A DNA stretch of 18,136 bases from Funneliformis mosseae. Its lineage: Eukaryota > Glomeromycota > Glomeromycetes > Glomerales > Glomeraceae. Below, one piece after another: positions 2 through 9,664 of this stretch (the stretch's first letter is position 1; each line of letters opens with the position of its first letter). The stretch covers positions 1 to 18,136 of the forward strand of contig CAJVPP010001729.1 of the NCBI GenBank assembly GCA_910592005.1, given 5' to 3'. The notes under the pieces are model-generated. The model did not search any database and was not told where the DNA came from. It saw only the letters and a list, made by a program, of their open reading frames with translations. The translations under genes and the position numbers were made by a program.

Positions 2-2074
2 AAATACTTGACCACTCAATTCAATCTATATGATATTCAAACAATGAGACCAAGATGTCCTATGCCTAGAGAAGAATCAACGCCTCCTCTTCCTACTATT
101 CGTTCAGTAAAACCTATACCAGAAATCCCTATTAATGCAACAGCTCAAAAACAGGCAACAAGTGAAATAGTAATAGCTGAAAAAAAACTTATTGAATCTG
201 AACAAATTTACAATATCACAACTGATCCTCAACTTCGCCATGATACATATGAGAAAATAGTAGACCTCCGAGCTCAAATTAAATCAAATCAGGACAGGAT
301 TCTTAAATTAAAAAGGAATGCACAATACGTTCAAAATTGCAAAGAAAAAAAACAGAAAATACTTGCCGAAAGACAGGAGGTTATACAATATGATAGACCC
401 GGTCGTCTATCCCTTCTTTTCAAATATCCAGAATTACACGAGCATATTTACAATTCGGTCAAGTTTGGTTCAGCTGATGAGAAATGACGAAGAGAAGTGG
501 TAAAAGTTCGGGTCATCAAAAATTTGCGTAAAAATCTTGAGGAGAAATATAATGTCTATATGGCACGGACAACATTAAATAATTATCTGTTGCCACGCCA
601 ATCCAATTCCATTGCTGCAAGAGCTCATCATCATCCAGCATGGATCGCAGTAGCTAGAGTTTTACGAACAGAGACACGCGATCATTCTGATGGTCATTAT
701 TGCCTTGCCTCTGTAAAATGTGCAAGGCAATTTGCAACTGTCTTTGCCGATATGTCAGTTGTCATCTCCCAAGATGATAAGGCAAAGATAGGTCTTGGGA
801 TACCTGCTGTAAGTCGGACCTTTCAAATATTGCAGTCAGTTCACGAGCCTGTTCATGTGGCCGATCACGATTTTCCTATAGGATATGGACAAAAGTTAGT
901 TCCATCGGTTTATCTTATAATCAAACTGAATGATTCAAATGATGAACTACGAACAGGCCAACTTGCCATTTTTGTATGACGTCAATGGTCCCTTGGTACA
1001 TCATCTCTCACATATATGCAAGATCTTGAAAATCTCTTTTTAAATACCCAATACGATGATGTGTTGAAGACCGACGGAGAAATTCGACCAATCTGAGTTT
1101 TATTAGTAGATGGAGGACCAGATGAGAACCCGAGACATTTAAAAAATATTAAAACATATTGCCATCTTTTTTGAAAATTTAATTTGGATTACCTGACTGT
1201 ACGGACACATACTCCAGGGCAATCCAAATATAATCCAGTCGAAAGGGGTATGGTGACGCTATCCAGCAAGCTAGCAGATATCATATTACCAATTGATCAT
1301 TTTAGAACACATTTAAATATGCAAGGCAAAGTGATAGATTCAGAGTTAGCTCTTCGAAATTATCAATACGCCGGAGAAGCTTTTTGTGACATTTGGCGTC
1401 GTGATTTGATTTTCAGAAAAAGCGTAGATGCTCGGTATGTTAAAGAATCCATCAATCCATTTGAAAACCTACAATTTGAGAGTATAGAAAAAGAAAAGAT
1501 TGAAGAACGAAAATGACAAAAAAAACAAAAAAAGAAACAACAAAAAGAAAAAGAAAAAGAAATAGACTTAGCTGATTGCTTTGTATCATGGTCATGGATT
1601 AAAAATCATTGTAATCTATGCCAGTATTCGCTCGATATTAAACGATGTGCGAATACAAGCTGTTGTGGTCCACCTTGTGTAAAAGAAGCCATGGAATTCC
1701 TTCAATCAAACAATGGCTTCTTACCTCCTATCACCAAAGCCAAAGATGGACAGTTTACCAACCCAATACACTTTCTCAAATATTATGATCTCTTGAAAAT
1801 TCCTGGCTACGATTTCCATTGCTCATCTCTTGATAAAATAACATATTTGCATCTTTGTTGTTCTGAATATAAACAATATTTTCTAACACTTACTTTTTTG
1901 ACGAACCACAAATGGACAGTACATCCTGCCAGCCGTGGACGGCCTAAAGGAAAAGGTAAAGACCAAAACTTCTCAACTCTCGACGACTTCTCTGTTCTCC
2001 CATCACAACGACAAGATAAAATACTGCTTTTTGAAGAAATGCGTTTGAGGGAATACATATCAGATCATGAATAA
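2..2074 (+). pseudogene. Decayed DDE-type transposase-like gene, 5' truncated by the window, five in-frame TGA codons
   Basis: One frame runs from the window edge to a TAA at 2072-2074 (about 690 codons) with no frameshift, broken only by TGA at 485, 977, 1094, 1172 and 1514. The upstream part (residues about 60-160) is lysine-rich and probably coiled or helical, followed by a stretch with HTH character. Motifs fit an RNase H-fold DDE nuclease: ISQDDKAKIGLG (first Asp at 773 or 776), LVDGGPDENPR (Asp at 1109) and SKYNPVERGM (Glu at 1241). The VDGGPDENPR...HTPG.S.YN.VER arrangement recalls a family of uncharacterised transposase-like proteins found in invertebrates and mycorrhizal fungi; this is from memory, and the mobile nature is inferred. 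The tail has CNLC and CANTSCCGPPC (about 1613-1680), a possible zinc site, then RGRPKGKGK (about 1933-1960), an AT-hook-like motif. Base composition is far richer in G+C than everything downstream. No terminal repeats were found. A functional copy may lie elsewhere. Confidence 0.75.
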
Positions 2075-2147: not shown

Positions 2148-3450
2148 ATCGATATATAGTATTAATAAAATAAGATATTACATTTATCACGTGATTTATA
2201 AGTTTATGTATAACCTAAGATCCCCTGCTACCCTCCACCCCCTAAAATATTAGCTAATATATGTCAGCGCCCTAATAGATTATAATAATTACTATTTCAT
2301 TTTTTTAAATTCAGAGACTCTTATACAAGTAAAAGATTTAGAGTATTCCAGATATAATAAACTATATTACATATTATAAATCTGAGCTAAATTGCATTAT
2401 CAATAAGGTTAAATGTCAGGTTTGATTCTTAAGTAAATTTGACGTTATGAATAATATGTCACTATTTATATAAAGAATTTGATTCTATGATCTCAGTAAT
2501 TATTAATAAGGTAAACCTTATAAATTAGATTAGTAAAGATAGTAATTGTTAATTACTATAATTGAAGTGAATTTATTATCTAATTCTGATAATTAAATTT
2601 ATATAAAGTATTAGTTGAGCAGATCTCAGAATCAAATCTAGATGAAGTAGACTATAATTACTAAATAGTAACCTCTAGACAAATATATATAATATGATTA
2701 TATATATATTTAGTAGTTATAAAATCTCAAGTTTAATAAGTATAAGATGTTAATTTAACCTCTATTAGATTTAACTGAAATAAATACATCTATAAAAAAA
2801 TTTCAAAAAGAACAATAATATAATATTCTAATTAAATAATAATGAATTATTTAATAAAAATGATAGTAAATAATCAATTCAAATTTAAATCTGAATCTGA
2901 ATCTGAATTTAACAGATTAAATTTGTATTTCTTTTTATTTTAAATAAAAAGTAATTAAAATAATAAATATATTATATTTTATGAAAATTATATTTATAAA
3001 TTAAAATAATATTATTAAATAAGTTTATATATTTTGATTATAAATAATTATATATATTAAAAATTTATTATCAGCAAAATTTTTTTGTATATTTAATTTA
3101 AAAAAAATAGCTTTATATCTACCTTTATATTAAAATTTAAAAGATAAATTTTATATATTTATTATTATTAATTATTTTTTTATTTTATTGATAAATCTTA
3201 TTAAATAAAGATAATAAAAATAAGTTTTTTTTTAAAAGATTTTAATTTATTAATTTAAGCTTTAATAGAATTTTCTTCTAAAATAACCTTTTTTTTAATT
3301 AATTTATAAATTATATTAAATTTATTAATAATTAATTTAGAATTAATTTTTTTAAAATTATATACTAAAATATTATTTAATAAATATAATAGTATCTTTA
3401 GTATTTTAAAATGTATATTTAACGATTTTATTACAAAATGATAAATATTA
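2148..3450. other. AT-rich spacer without a recognisable gene
   Basis: No reading frame of note. A short C-rich tract lies at about 2221-2243 and a CACGTG E-box-like site at about 2189-2194. A weak inverted pair sharing TTTGATTCT and GATCT lies at 2478-2496 and 2621-2636, possibly an old MITE. Three copies of the hexamer GAATCT lie at about 2887-2907. From about 2900 on the sequence is almost entirely A and T. Confidence 0.7.
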
Positions 3451-3790
3451 TACAGTCAATTCTCTATAAATATATCCCTATAAATGCATATCCTTTATAA
3501 ATACATCTTTTTATCTGGTTTTAATTTGGGCCTTAGTGTTAAATGTATATCTTTTATAAATACATCTTTTTATCTAATCTTAACTTAGGCCTTAATGTTA
3601 AATACATATTTTTTATATATATATTCTCTGTAAATGCACTCTTTATAAAAAAATTTATATAGTTTACTTATTAAATTTTTGTATTATCTTAATTTTAGAT
3701 TAGATTTATATATATTTTATAAATACACACTTTTTTAAATGCATCCTTATACCTAGTCCTAAGGAGTATATTTATAGAGAGTTGACTGTA
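3451..3790. mobile_element. Pogo/Tc1-type MITE, 336 bp, with TA target duplication
   Basis: Terminal inverted repeats begin CAGTCAATTCTCTATAAATA at 3453 and end as the reverse complement of CAGTCAACTCTCTATAAATA at 3788; about 22 bp match with one mismatch. TA flanks both ends (3451-3452 and 3789-3790), as expected for the Tc1/mariner/pogo superfamily. The CAGT..CTCTATA start resembles pogo/Tigger ends. The interior carries no coding sequence but a tandem duplication, so it is non-autonomous and would depend on a transposase encoded elsewhere. Confidence 0.85.
3490..3612. repeat. 59-bp tandem repeat, about two copies, inside the MITE
   Basis: A unit starting atcctttataaatacatc at 3490 recurs at 3549 with about 85% identity by eye, including tttttatct, a ..ggccttagtgttaaa block and a following atatc. 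A third partial and diverged copy begins near 3608. It makes up much of the left half of the MITE. Confidence 0.75.
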
Positions 3791-5920
3791 TATTTAAATT
3801 AATGTTAGTTAATTTTATCAATGAATATTATGATAATCATTCACATTATGAATAAATATATTTTTTATATTTTGTAAATAATAATTATAATAATTATTAG
3901 TGTTCATTTAAAATAATATTTTTTGTTGATTTATAGTTTTTTTTATTACTAAAATTTCAATATTTGTTAATGTATCAATAGAAGAATAAGAAATTTTAAA
4001 AGTTTGTAAATATGATTTAATTTCTAGTTTAAATATTATTAATATATTATTATTAATATTAGCTAAAAATAATATAATAAAACTAATTTTTTTTATTTTT
4101 ATTTGTTTTAAAAAATTAATTAAAACTTTATTAATATTTTTAATATAATTGTAAAAGCTATTGAATTATAAATAAGTTTATTTAATCTATTTTAATTATT
4201 ATAAAGAATATTAAACATTTTAATTATTTTACTATTTAAATTAAAGTTGTTATTTATATTATAATTTCTGATAATTTGATTTAATTACTTTAATTCTTTT
4301 CTAATATATAAAATACCTTTTCTAAATATTTAATTTTCTATTTTTAATTTATTATTATTATTACCATTATTTTTAGAAATCTGCTTTATATTATTTAACT
4401 TCTAAATATTCTAGATCTTTATTAGTTTTTTTTTTTTAATAGGATCATTATCAGTTTTTCTACATATATTGCAAATCATTGTATCTTCATTTAATTAATA
4501 TTTCAATTAATTTTTCTGGAATTTTAAATAAATTTGTTGAATTTATTTTATAAATATCATATTTTGAATGTTAATATTTTAATATTTGATATTTTATTTA
4601 ATATTAATTTAATTATAATATATTTAAAAAAGTATCAAATTAATAGTTATTGAAATATCTATTTTATTTAAATTTTTCTAATTCTTCCTTTACATATATT
4701 ATTTATGTAAAAATTACAATTATTAATATCTGCAATGATATTTTTGAAAATTAGAAATAGAATTTTAAAGTTAAAAAGTTATAATTTTAATAAATAAAAA
4801 TAATTTTGCAAATTTTTCATAAATACTATTATATTTGCACTATATGAATTTTTTTTGTGCATTTAAATTTTTAAAATATTGTGCACACTAAAAAATCATG
4901 CGCACGTGCACATTGTGCACATGAATTTTAAATATTGAGTCTGACCTCTGATATACCGACATATATTAAAAATTCGATATAGCGACAATATTTTATTTTA
5001 TTTAAATATGGAGCGTTGCAAAATCACATTACGAATCATATGATTTACTATATCTCATGACTTGATTTTCTATAAATAAATTCTTGATTTTAGCAAAGTA
5101 CCAAGTTTTGAGACCGTTTTACTTAAATTATCACAATAAAATAAAATAAATAAATTGTAATAATAAATTTAATGCAATATTCATTTGCAAACAAATAAAA
5201 ACATTCTGATATTCGAAAATTTCAAATATGCACACTTTGAAAGAAACTTACCCAAGGACTTATATACTGTATATCAATATTTTTTATTCGTTTGAATATC
5301 ATCTTTTAATGGTTATCAAAGTTATATTGTTGTTGCACCACATGAAAATTGATAATTGATCGATCATTTTTTCCACATGTTGACACACAGAACATCAATT
5401 ATAAAATAAGCTCTAACGGTTAAACTCTACCTATTAATAGTTTTTTTCAAAAAAAAGGTCGTTACGAGATATAATTTTTTTTTTTTAAAAAAAGAACCAT
5501 TCAAGCACGTTCTTTTTATCCATAATACGCGAATGATTTATTTTATTATGAAAAACTCATTCTAATGTAAGTTGTATTTCAATTATGTCTACATTAAGGA
5601 ATTGTCGTCGTTAAAAGAAAAAGTAACAGGCAAATGTACACGTTACTCTTTATTTAATATGGTTAAAATTATAAATAAATAAATAAACGAAATTTTGTTA
5701 CCATAAAGAAGCGCAGCAACTATATGAAGAAAAGATCATCAAACAAAAGTGATTTACAGTTTCAAAAAAATTTAATTTGCATGTAAACATGTAAATCTTG
5801 AAAAAGGTTGTTTTTTTTTTTATTTTTATTTTTATTTATAACCATTATTCATGTTCTCATAAATCGAAACTTTTTTGATAAATCCACCTCGTTTGGAACA
5901 AATTTTAACAAAATTAAAAT
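3791..5920. other. AT-rich spacer and upstream region of the TBC gene
   Basis: 3791-4850 is nearly pure A/T with no open frame or repeat that I could support. From about 4850 the G+C content rises. A palindrome cluster lies at 4850-4930 (listed separately). 5450-5500 holds two poly-A/T runs. T-rich tracts at 5809-5836 precede the gene at 5921 and may be promoter sequence, but no clear TATA box or transcription start can be assigned. Confidence 0.6.
4850..4930. repeat. Cluster of GTGCAC palindromes with CACGTG core
   Basis: Around catgcgcacgtgcacattgt (4898-4917) there are three GTGCAC or GTGCAC-like palindromes (4881, 4908, 4915) and one CACGTG (4903), with AT-rich arms on either side (tttaaatttttaaaatatt and gaattttaaatattg) that are partly complementary. 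The island is strikingly richer in G+C than its surroundings. It could be a binding-site cluster for a bHLH-type factor or the centre of an old foldback element. Confidence 0.5.
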
Positions 5921-7506: not shown

Positions 7507-8160
7507 TTACTTAAATTTTTTTTAAAAATATAATATTTAATATATTTTATTTATTTTCAAAATTTTAAATAAAAAATTATAGTTTATTAAAAATATTTTA
7601 ATTAATATTAATTTTAAAATTACAAATTAAATAGAATTATTTTTAATAAAATAATATATAAAGATTATTCTAAAAGAAGAAAAATAATATTATTTAATAT
7701 AAATTAAAATTATATATATAAATTGATAAATTTATCATTAATATAAAATATTATATTAATTTTTATATAAAATTATCTTTTTATAATTTTTAATTACTTT
7801 TGTTTATAATAATTTATACATATTTATATTATGTAAAATATATATATTAAAATTAATATCTATGTATATACTTTATAGATGAAGGATGAAAACCCTTAAT
7901 AACAGTTGAAACTTAGATAAAATTATATTAAAATCATAATAAAGAATACAATAAAATTTTTTCAATATAATAAAAGCTAAAACTGTTAAAATTATTTAAA
8001 AACATAAAAAAGGATATATCAAAATTATTTTGAGAAAGTTTCAGCAAACATCTATAATATATTTAAATACTAATTAATTTTGATAATATCAAAATTAATT
8101 ACGTTAATTTGACATTTATTAGAAATTATTAATAAAATAATTAATAAAAAAAAAATATAT
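7507..8160. other. AT-rich 3' flank of the TBC gene, no gene seen
   Basis: Possible AATAAA poly-A signals occur close after the stop (for example at about 7568-7573). A perfect hairpin lies at 8071-8101: a 14-bp stem taattaattttgat, loop aat, and its exact complement. No coding sequence is evident. Confidence 0.6.
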
Positions 8161-9110
8161 ATTAACTAACGTTCCCTTTATATCCTCTATAGAAACTTAC
8201 CTTTGATCAAGAATAAAAATCTCTAAATCCTACAAAAAAAGGTAATTAGTTTTTTTTTTAAATAAAGTTAAAAAAAAAAAAATAATTGCTGTTTCCATTT
8301 TCTCTTATAGGAACTTACTTCTGATTTAGGACAAAAACCTTTAGATTCTACAAATAAAAGGTGAGTTAATTATTAAAGTTTTTTATTACAAATAAAAAAG
8401 ATTTTGACTGATGCTTCTATTCTCCTTCTATAGGAACTTACCTTTCATTCAAGCCTTAAAAGTTCTTCAAATTCTACAAAAAGGTAAGTAGAGTGTTATT
8501 ATTTTTAAAAAAAAATAAAAAAAAATATTAACTAACATTCCCTCTATACCCTCTATACCTCCATAGAAATTTACTTTCGATCATGGATAAAAACCTCTAG
8601 ATCCTAAAAAAAAAAGGTAATTTAACTTTATTTTTTTTTTAAATAAAAAAAAATAATAATAATTACTACCATAAGAATTACTTCCTGATCCAGAACGAAT
8701 TATACAAAAAAAGGTAAATTATTGATTTTTTTTTTATTTTTAACAAATTAAAGCAATTTAACTATAAGAACTTACCTTTTATTCAAGATGAAGATCTTTG
8801 GATCCTACAAAAAGAATGAGTTTTTAATAAAGTAAAAAAAAAATTTTGACTGATACTTCCATACTCCTTTCATAGAACTTATCTTGAAAATCCTCTAAAT
8901 TCTACAAAAGGTAAACAAAGGATTATTATTTAAAAAAAAATAAAAAAAAATAATATTATCTAATGCTCTCTCTATAGAAACTTACCTTTGACCAAGAATG
9001 AAGACCTCTAGATTCTACAAAATAAAGTAATTAGTTTTCTTTTTTTTTTAATATAAATTAAAAAAAAGTAATTTAATTGCGTTTCTATTCTCTTTCCATA
9101 GGAATTATTA
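8161..9110. repeat. Tandem array of about nine exon-like units in a three-unit higher-order repeat
   Basis: A core resembling gaacttacctttgatcaag, then ..aaaacctctagattctacaa, then aaaag recurs after a pyrimidine-rich tract ending in TAG or AAG, and is followed by GTAA or GTGAGT. The AG positions are about 8191, 8309, 8432, 8565, 8674, 8767, 8874, 8976 and 9100, a period of 93-133 bp. Cores are about 50 nt; units 5 (8676-8713) and 7 (8876-8910) are shortened and the last is cut after gaa. Leading flanks fall into three kinds: ttaactaac (units 1, 4, 8), aattgc..tttc (units 2, 9) and gactgatgcttc (units 3, 7), and the spacer sequences match in the same order, giving A-B-C, A-A'-B-C, A-B. Plus-strand frames contain stops, so nothing can be called coding. 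On the minus strand the same cores give 29-nt exon-like blocks between TGTAG and GTAAGTT. It may be a satellite or a decayed array of duplicated exons. Confidence 0.85.
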
Positions 9111-9664
9111 GTTTTTTTTCTAAAAAATAAATTAAAAAATTTAATTGCAGCTTTTTATATCCGATTAAAAGATAAAAAAAATTCATAATTTACCTTTTCA
9201 AAAAAAATTTTAAAATTAATACCTATTTTAATTAATTGTCTTATGTAATCTTTGATTATAAGATCACATAACGATAAATGTACAAAATGCATTGTACTAT
9301 AATATTTGAGTATAGTACATTATTTAGAACAATACTAGTACAGTATCAGTACAGTACTAGTATAATTCCTAATTCTGCTTACATATATTATGACGAAAAA
9401 AAATCAATAATTATGTAATGCAATAAAATATGTATTATGTTAAGTAATAGTCTATATTTAAATTTTTTTTCTGAATCAGTCAAACTGGTTAAATAATCAT
9501 AACTTTTATCTTATTTCTCATTCTTAACGTAATACCTTTTAGCTGATTAAGATGATTTATAGATGCTAATAAGTTATTTTATTTTGCATACTGAGATGAG
9601 ATAAATATTTTGCCTATATTACTTTTACAATTTAATAATTGATAAGAAATTGGAAAATCATTTT
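9111..9664. other. AT-rich spacer, no gene seen
   Basis: The array fades out here; a last taattgcag tract lies near 9141-9150. At about 9331-9362 short overlapping copies of agtacagta and cagtactagta form an imperfect palindrome. No reading frame worth reporting. Confidence 0.55.

Follow-up and report, generated by a model that had tools for sequence, protein, structure and literature searches.

What kind of sequence is the tandem array of short exon-like units found within the 18,136-nt stretch of DNA analysed here (hereafter, the window)? The sequence-only reading had described about nine units of roughly 50 nt lying between TAG and GT, and had suggested that they come from an in-frame amplified three-exon coding module. 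The features placed in and around the array are the following.

About 8143..9377, plus strand: hAT-like DNA transposon remnant (family I), array part and right end, lacking transposase and left end; delimited by homology to copies and by termini
8161..9110, plus strand: array of exon-like units
8192..8241, plus strand: unit 1, class A; acceptor TATAG, donor GTAATT
8311..8360, plus strand: unit 2, class B; acceptor TATAG, donor GTGAGT
8434..8483, plus strand: unit 3, class C; branch-like site TTGACTGATG, acceptor TATAG, donor GTAAGT
8567..8616, plus strand: unit 4, A-like; acceptor CATAG, donor GTAATT
8676..8713, plus strand: unit 5, short (38 nt); preceded by AAG, donor GTAAAT
8769..8814, plus strand: unit 6, 46 nt; preceded by AAG, 3' border without GT
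8876..8910, plus strand: unit 7, short (35 nt), C-like; acceptor CATAG, donor GTAAAC
8978..9027, plus strand: unit 8, class A; acceptor TATAG, donor GTAATT, placed so that the donor GT overlaps the last core base
9070..9101, plus strand: lone pyrimidine tract and CATAG acceptor with no complete unit behind it (by eye)
9309..9362, plus strand: subterminal short repeats AGTACTAGTAC near the right end
9368..9377, plus strand: right terminus, CCTAATTCTG in the window, CCAACCCTG or similar in other copies

The array is confirmed as real: its units present a branch site, a pyrimidine tract, TAG and GTAAGT-like donors, and they are arranged in an A-B-C higher order. It is composed of eight exon-like cores and one lone acceptor (8192-9101, plus strand), close to the nine units expected, but the uniform size and borders held only for part of them: five of the eight cores are 50 nt long (the remaining three 38, 46 and 35), the base triplet before the core is TAG in six and AAG in two, and GT is present at the far border of seven (GTAATT, GTGAGT, GTAAGT, GTAAAT, GTAAAC), the exception being 8769-8814 (triplets and far borders read by eye). 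Allowing at most one mismatch, GGTAAGT occurs five times on the plus strand of the array against 0.6 in dinucleotide shuffles, and six times on the minus strand against 1.8. The placed cores and this excess of donor-like sites bear out the description of tandem exon-like units with splice-like borders. The G+C content is 28.5% in the cores and 18.4% in the spacers, and the array was absent from the output of Tandem Repeats Finder.

When classes were assigned by a simple motif rule, which leaves some units unassigned, seven of the eight cores gave the string A-B-C-?-A-C-A, a partial reproduction of the series A-B-C, A-A'-B-C, A-B reported before. The triplet order is plainer in the class strings of four longer copies (L009, L010, L011, and L013) and is reflected in the offset of about 364 bp between two window matches in L009 (8078 vs 8442), which supports the earlier proposal that whole triplets were duplicated.

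The genome searched amounts to 82 Mb in 4154 contigs, one of which is the window. The search for further copies that the sequence-only reading had recommended was productive: the array gave 70 matches, including three other full-length copies at 86-88% identity. Homology between the window and the other copies starts at about 8143 (slightly further left in some) and ends at 9342-9384 in the best ones, and the right ends of family I copies align to ...CCAACCCTG-like termini. The window array belongs to a hAT-like DNA transposon, decayed and truncated, of which it forms the right-hand part. It contains six unit hits (E<0.01), against 17 in L009, 21 in L010, 18 in L011, 17 in L012, 18 in L013, 12 in L014, and 16 in L015. 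In L011, the array lies downstream of a decayed transposase, hAT-like by eye, and stops about 300 bases before the right terminus, which is 5.6 kb from the left terminus TAGGGTTG; the neighbourhood of this left terminus has four other genome matches, one of them weak. The candidate short TIRs of family I read TAGGGTTG at the left end and, on the other strand, a CAGGGTTGG-like sequence at the right ends. Short GTACT repeats are found near both ends of the L011 element (the left end by eye), and the bases flanking it agree at six of eight positions in a check for an 8-bp target duplication made on this one copy.

Two L011 fragments matched no Pfam family, so that family I owes its hAT label to ends, layout, and resemblance. 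In family III, a C-terminus of L027 assembled from two exons scores exactly at the PF05699 cut-off (21.4 bits, E 2.2e-4). All the copies analysed are decayed. The array is at or near a contig end in C168, C200, C3044, C394, C459, and C2377; since the assembly seems to break inside arrays, array lengths and counts are lower bounds. A piece of window unit 3 with its flanks (8375-8557; about 136-185 bp, 84% identity) stands alone in L018, L019, L020, and L028, and two contigs with such a lone piece (C1398 and C3005) also present dyads of the family IV type, thus arrays may exchange pieces.

The two ends of a unit are reverse-complementary, ACTTACCT...AGGTAAGT, so that each strand shows donor-like sites. 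In its exact form the dyad, ACTTACCT-N20-45-AGGTAAGT, each site of which reads identically on either strand, occurs 62 times in the genome, against two occurrences of the pattern written backwards and four of the pattern with swapped halves, two of these four being on contigs that also bear the dyad. In the window, the exact two-arm dyad is in unit 3 (8436-8489). The distance from arm to arm peaks at 50-56 bp, with outliers from 31 to 69 bp.

We show that this layout is common to at least six families. The sample consisted of 21 array stretches from families I, II, III, IV, V, and VIII, selected and oriented by eye; the array-bearing loci L016-L021, L028, L030, L032, L033, L040, L041, and L043 are outside the counts. 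GGTAAGT (at most one mismatch) exceeded the shuffles on both strands in all 21 stretches. The units were called on the basis of their donor-like arms, giving 283 calls in which overlapping alternatives are counted. On the plus strand, YAG was found within 3 nt before the left arm in 159/283 calls, compared to two at the control offset (family I: 73/134 vs 0). On the minus strand, YAG was found 2-10 nt inside the arm in 179/283 calls, compared to 58 at the control offset; by family, 86/134 vs 33 in I, 21/52 vs 3 in II, 23/32 vs 5 in III, 22/28 vs 1 in V, and 12/14 vs 5 in VIII, while in family IV the minus-strand acceptor barely exceeds the control (15/23 vs 11/23).

The branch motif CTRAY was compared with a reversed-motif control. 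On the plus strand it was found in 74/134 calls vs 1 in family I, 14/23 vs 0 in IV, 8/32 vs 1 in III, and 12/52 vs 5 in II; on the minus strand, in 27/52 vs 0 in II, 23/32 vs 4 in III, and 11/14 vs 0 in VIII. No excess was present on the minus strand of family I (6/134 vs 23) or on either strand of family V (minus 18/28 vs 24, plus 0 vs 0). The motif is therefore on the plus strand in families I and IV, on the minus strand in VIII, and on both in III and II (more weakly on the plus strand in II). In general, donors are two-sided, and two-sided acceptors are clear except in family IV, but only families II and III support a complete set of splice signals on each of the two strands. In family I, to which the window belongs, donor, acceptor, and branch signals occur in order on the plus strand only. 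The sequence-only reading had set against its own exon interpretation a pattern of free borders around a conserved interior; we found the reverse, the borders and not the interior being common to the families.

The signals surround units in which no reading frame is kept. Lengths modulo three (0/1/2) of plus-strand exons, measured in large number in family I only, were 21/25/25 among the 71 exons of this family; the values were 5/8/10 in II, 5/10/6 in III, 7/6/1 in IV, 3/3/9 in V, and 4/1/4 in VIII. Stops are present in 16 of the 24 plus-strand core-frames of the window, and three of its eight cores are closed in all three frames, while some are open in one or two. In addition, one-base differences in the A-run that precedes the donor alter the unit lengths. 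One family III unit, of about 200 nt, holds about 155 bp of a host gene. The matching ORF is open in C780 (L037), a gene that need not be the donor copy. The captured piece is present in three copies of the element (C1304, C291, and C609), oriented like the array and joined at the short shared sequence GATCCGGAT, and all three have in common two 1-nt deletions relative to the C780 gene. Both captured units that were translated contain stops in all three plus-strand frames.

The even frames of family I, the stops, and the closed captured unit led us to reject coding exons, on the plus or the minus strand, as the main reading, and with them the amplified in-frame module. An argument from frames that open once C-to-T changes are undone was also dropped, because each stop codon is one such change away from a sense codon. 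By eye, foreign-looking stretches akin to the family III capture are visible inside family V units (L029, about 3360-3565; L044, about 1716-1800).

The variation of the arms, scored in 234 deduplicated units, is informative on their nature. Most single changes are G-to-A decay, the essential G included, and a changed arm is frequently found opposite an exact one, while no matching double change occurs among the 30 commonest arm combinations; we therefore rejected the hypothesis that pairing of the two arms is kept. Among single A-to-G changes, 18 fall at the third intron base, giving GTGAGT, and one at each of two other A positions, counts that are not independent since many of these changes are inherited. 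The arms vary independently and tolerate GTGAGT, which is donor-like and not stem-like behaviour.

Three points go beyond the sequence-only reading: the array belongs to DNA transposons, both of its strands bear donor-like sites, and it is found again in transposon superfamilies that are unrelated. Family V arrays sit in pogo-like elements (Tc1/mariner, pogo group): transposase fragments of L042 matched HTH_Tnp_Tc5 (E 2.7e-7) and DDE_1 (E 2.6e-10 and 2.1e-5), and in this locus a decayed transposase on the minus strand is followed by the array at its 5' side and then by the terminus. The short element L044 has both of its termini and contains three complete units besides one that is disrupted; its termini are of the type TACAGTCA.../...TGACTGTA, with TA at both outer ends (by eye). 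The terminal stretch beside the family V array has at least 55 genome matches, and it occurs together with the exact dyad on eight contigs (C1607, C920, C1351, C2658, C2713, C472, C394, and C840).

With the arms taken off, the interiors of units from families II, III, V, and VIII resemble each other more than shuffles do. From III to V, 17/20 sampled units beat all 19 shuffles, and 14/20 did so when the bases near the border were also removed; the corresponding values were 17/20 and 6/20 from I to II, and 13/20 and 12/20 from II to I. Interiors of family IV compared with other families fell to shuffle level after this removal, and a shared interior was not supported for this family. This suggests that hAT-like and pogo-like units derive from one ancestral unit, to which family IV is not tied. 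Since the units of hAT-like elements resemble those of pogo-like ones in their interiors, the module may have moved from one superfamily to another.

Families I, III, and IV have their array 3' of the transposase (by eye in III and IV), while in L042 it is on the 5' side, a difference in position that no single role in transposase expression fits. In C1224 (L035, family VIII), about 0.5 kb separates a PF05699 hit from the inverse-type array that lies beyond it, and in C1695 (L040) a strong PF05699 hit has a nearby dyad of the opposite type. Two observations by eye concern family III: an intron-like AAG/GTTAGT...TTCTAG (slashes mark splice borders here and below) directly follows the hAT stop codon, upstream of the array, in L027 (about 4927-4830, minus strand) and L039 (about 515-600), and a Tc1/mariner-like remnant lies directly behind the array in C291, C1304, and C609 (about 2680-2080, minus strand, in L027; about 1180-1680 in L026). 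This remnant was apparently inserted before the family III element multiplied.

The explanation that we favour, with a confidence somewhat short of an even chance, is that the array is a non-coding set of splice signals through which a decayed hAT-like transposon would let the transcripts that cross it be spliced. A unit is exon-like, with an acceptor (branch site, pyrimidine tract, YAG) on one side and a donor (AG/GTAAGT) on the other, and units multiplied through tandem and triplet duplication; the spliceosome would thus be offered repeated acceptor-exon-donor units and transcripts across the element would be spliced there. Splicing would be possible in at least one direction per family, in II and III perhaps in both, and where both strands carry full signals the orientation of the insertion would not matter. 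A large part of the AT-rich element would thereby leave the RNA, and the damage of readthrough to host genes would fall. The predicted junctions are TAG/GAACTTACC and AAAG/GTAAGT on the plus strand, and TTTGTAG/ and CAGAG/GTAAGT on the minus strand. In a search for spliced copies, the junction pattern CTACAA-N1-6-G-N0-3-ACTTACCT was found at four places of the genome (C207, C112, C480, and C1105); the only one read, C207, is unrelated sequence, so that no copy with an exon-exon junction emerged from it. A wider proposal, possible but decidedly tentative, is that of a self-contained tandem exon-intron module, spliceable on either strand in some families, which may have spread between the unrelated hAT-like and pogo-like elements of a probably mycorrhizal fungus, making insertions tolerable in either orientation and trapping pieces of host genes as new exons.

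Other explanations were weighed as well. The perfect symmetry of ACTTACCT...AGGTAAGT and the tandem spacing would suit sites for a transposase or another DNA-binding protein, with an incidental resemblance to donors, and repeated binding sites are common towards the ends of hAT and pogo elements. We hold this to be unlikely: YAG acceptors and branch motifs occupy fixed places for which a dyad has no use, the length from arm to arm varies widely, and elements whose transposases are unrelated share these arms. Moreover, in the copies read the array is on one side only, whereas the GTACT repeats are near both L011 ends, which makes classical subterminal transposase sites the less likely identity for the array. 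That the array is a neutral tandem repeat of satellite type, housed in transposons and never involved in splicing, now or earlier, appears rather improbable to us. The copies are decayed, and because the interiors of II, III, V, and VIII are alike beyond shuffles, the conservation of the borders could in part be common descent; on the other hand, family IV has the same arms around interiors not similar above shuffles, and the acceptor geometry is retained in six families.

Roles free of splicing were also considered, namely clustered U1 snRNP sites, present on either strand, that would suppress premature polyadenylation in AT-rich RNA, or an RNA stem of the paired arms that would mask the donors. 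The sequence AGGTAAGT closely matches the U1 5' end, and it is present on both strands, but acceptors and branch motifs would stay unexplained by U1 binding and the pairing required by a stem is not kept; these roles seem to us quite improbable. Hardly credible, finally, is an amplified protein-coding module with the units as its exons. Each of the first three cores of the window measures 50 nt, one or two frames are open in some cores, and exon lengths are less even in families IV (7/6/1) and V (3/3/9), but this reading is opposed by the 21/25/25 of family I, by the captured unit closed in all frames, and by the single-base length changes in the A-run before the donor.

The array can be compared with known systems. 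Pack-TIR and Pack-MULE elements are TIR transposons containing a host-gene piece, as does one family III unit with its roughly 155 bp, but here the piece is within a single unit of a splice-bounded array and is joined at a short shared sequence. DNA transposons of the En/Spm type have a second, many-exon gene (TnpA), which the small exon-like pieces beside the transposase recall, although the array has no kept reading frame. Maize Ds and Ds1 are hAT-type DNA transposons that bring splice sites, with one forward and four reverse donors in Ds, and three donors and two acceptors in Ds1 (PMC5432752). Those sites are few, near-terminal, and tested by RT-PCR (PMC5432752), whereas the arrays described here are long, higher-order tandem series of predicted acceptor-exon-donor units, present also in pogo-like elements. 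Introners likewise derive from DNA transposons, carry splice sites, and are removed as introns (PMC9860276); they provide one intron per insertion, in genes, while here many exon-like units are found per element, inside the transposon (PMC9860276). The tandem higher-order arrangement and the presence in two superfamilies set the array apart from Ds/Ds1 and introners, and no description of such arrays was found in the titles and abstracts that searches of the open-access literature brought up.

If the array is spliced, it would represent a further use of the spliceosome by DNA transposons, beside Ds-type exonization and introners, in which splice units, in part two-sided, are amplified into an array that is common to superfamilies. 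It would then bear on how genes remain readable in AT-rich, transposon-laden fungal genomes, on the origin of new exons and introns, and on the exchange of parts among transposons.

Other features of the window were also noted. A decayed transposase-like ORF (2-2071, plus strand) contains five in-frame stops, all TGA (485, 977, 1094, 1172, and 1514). In an alignment of eight relatives, R prevails at the first two positions and W at the third, with no majority residue at the last two; the stops are therefore decay (CGA or TGG to TGA), not recoding. PF07592 was found in a few relatives. The named matches among the 120 listed for this ORF belong to Rhizophagus, Entrophospora, Gigaspora, Cetraspora, and Scutellospora. 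A short host protein has 77% identity to Rhizophagus clarus, and the relatives point to a probable host of the Glomeromycotina type. A gene with a RabGAP-TBC domain (E 2.5e-20, one exon) and short introns extends from 5921 to about 7500 (plus strand), and the window copy of the array lies beyond this readable part. Lastly, a short element at about 3450-3792 is built around a 59-bp tandem repeat, and its termini, TACAGTCAATTCTC.../...GAGTTGACTGTA by eye, resemble those of the pogo-like family V.
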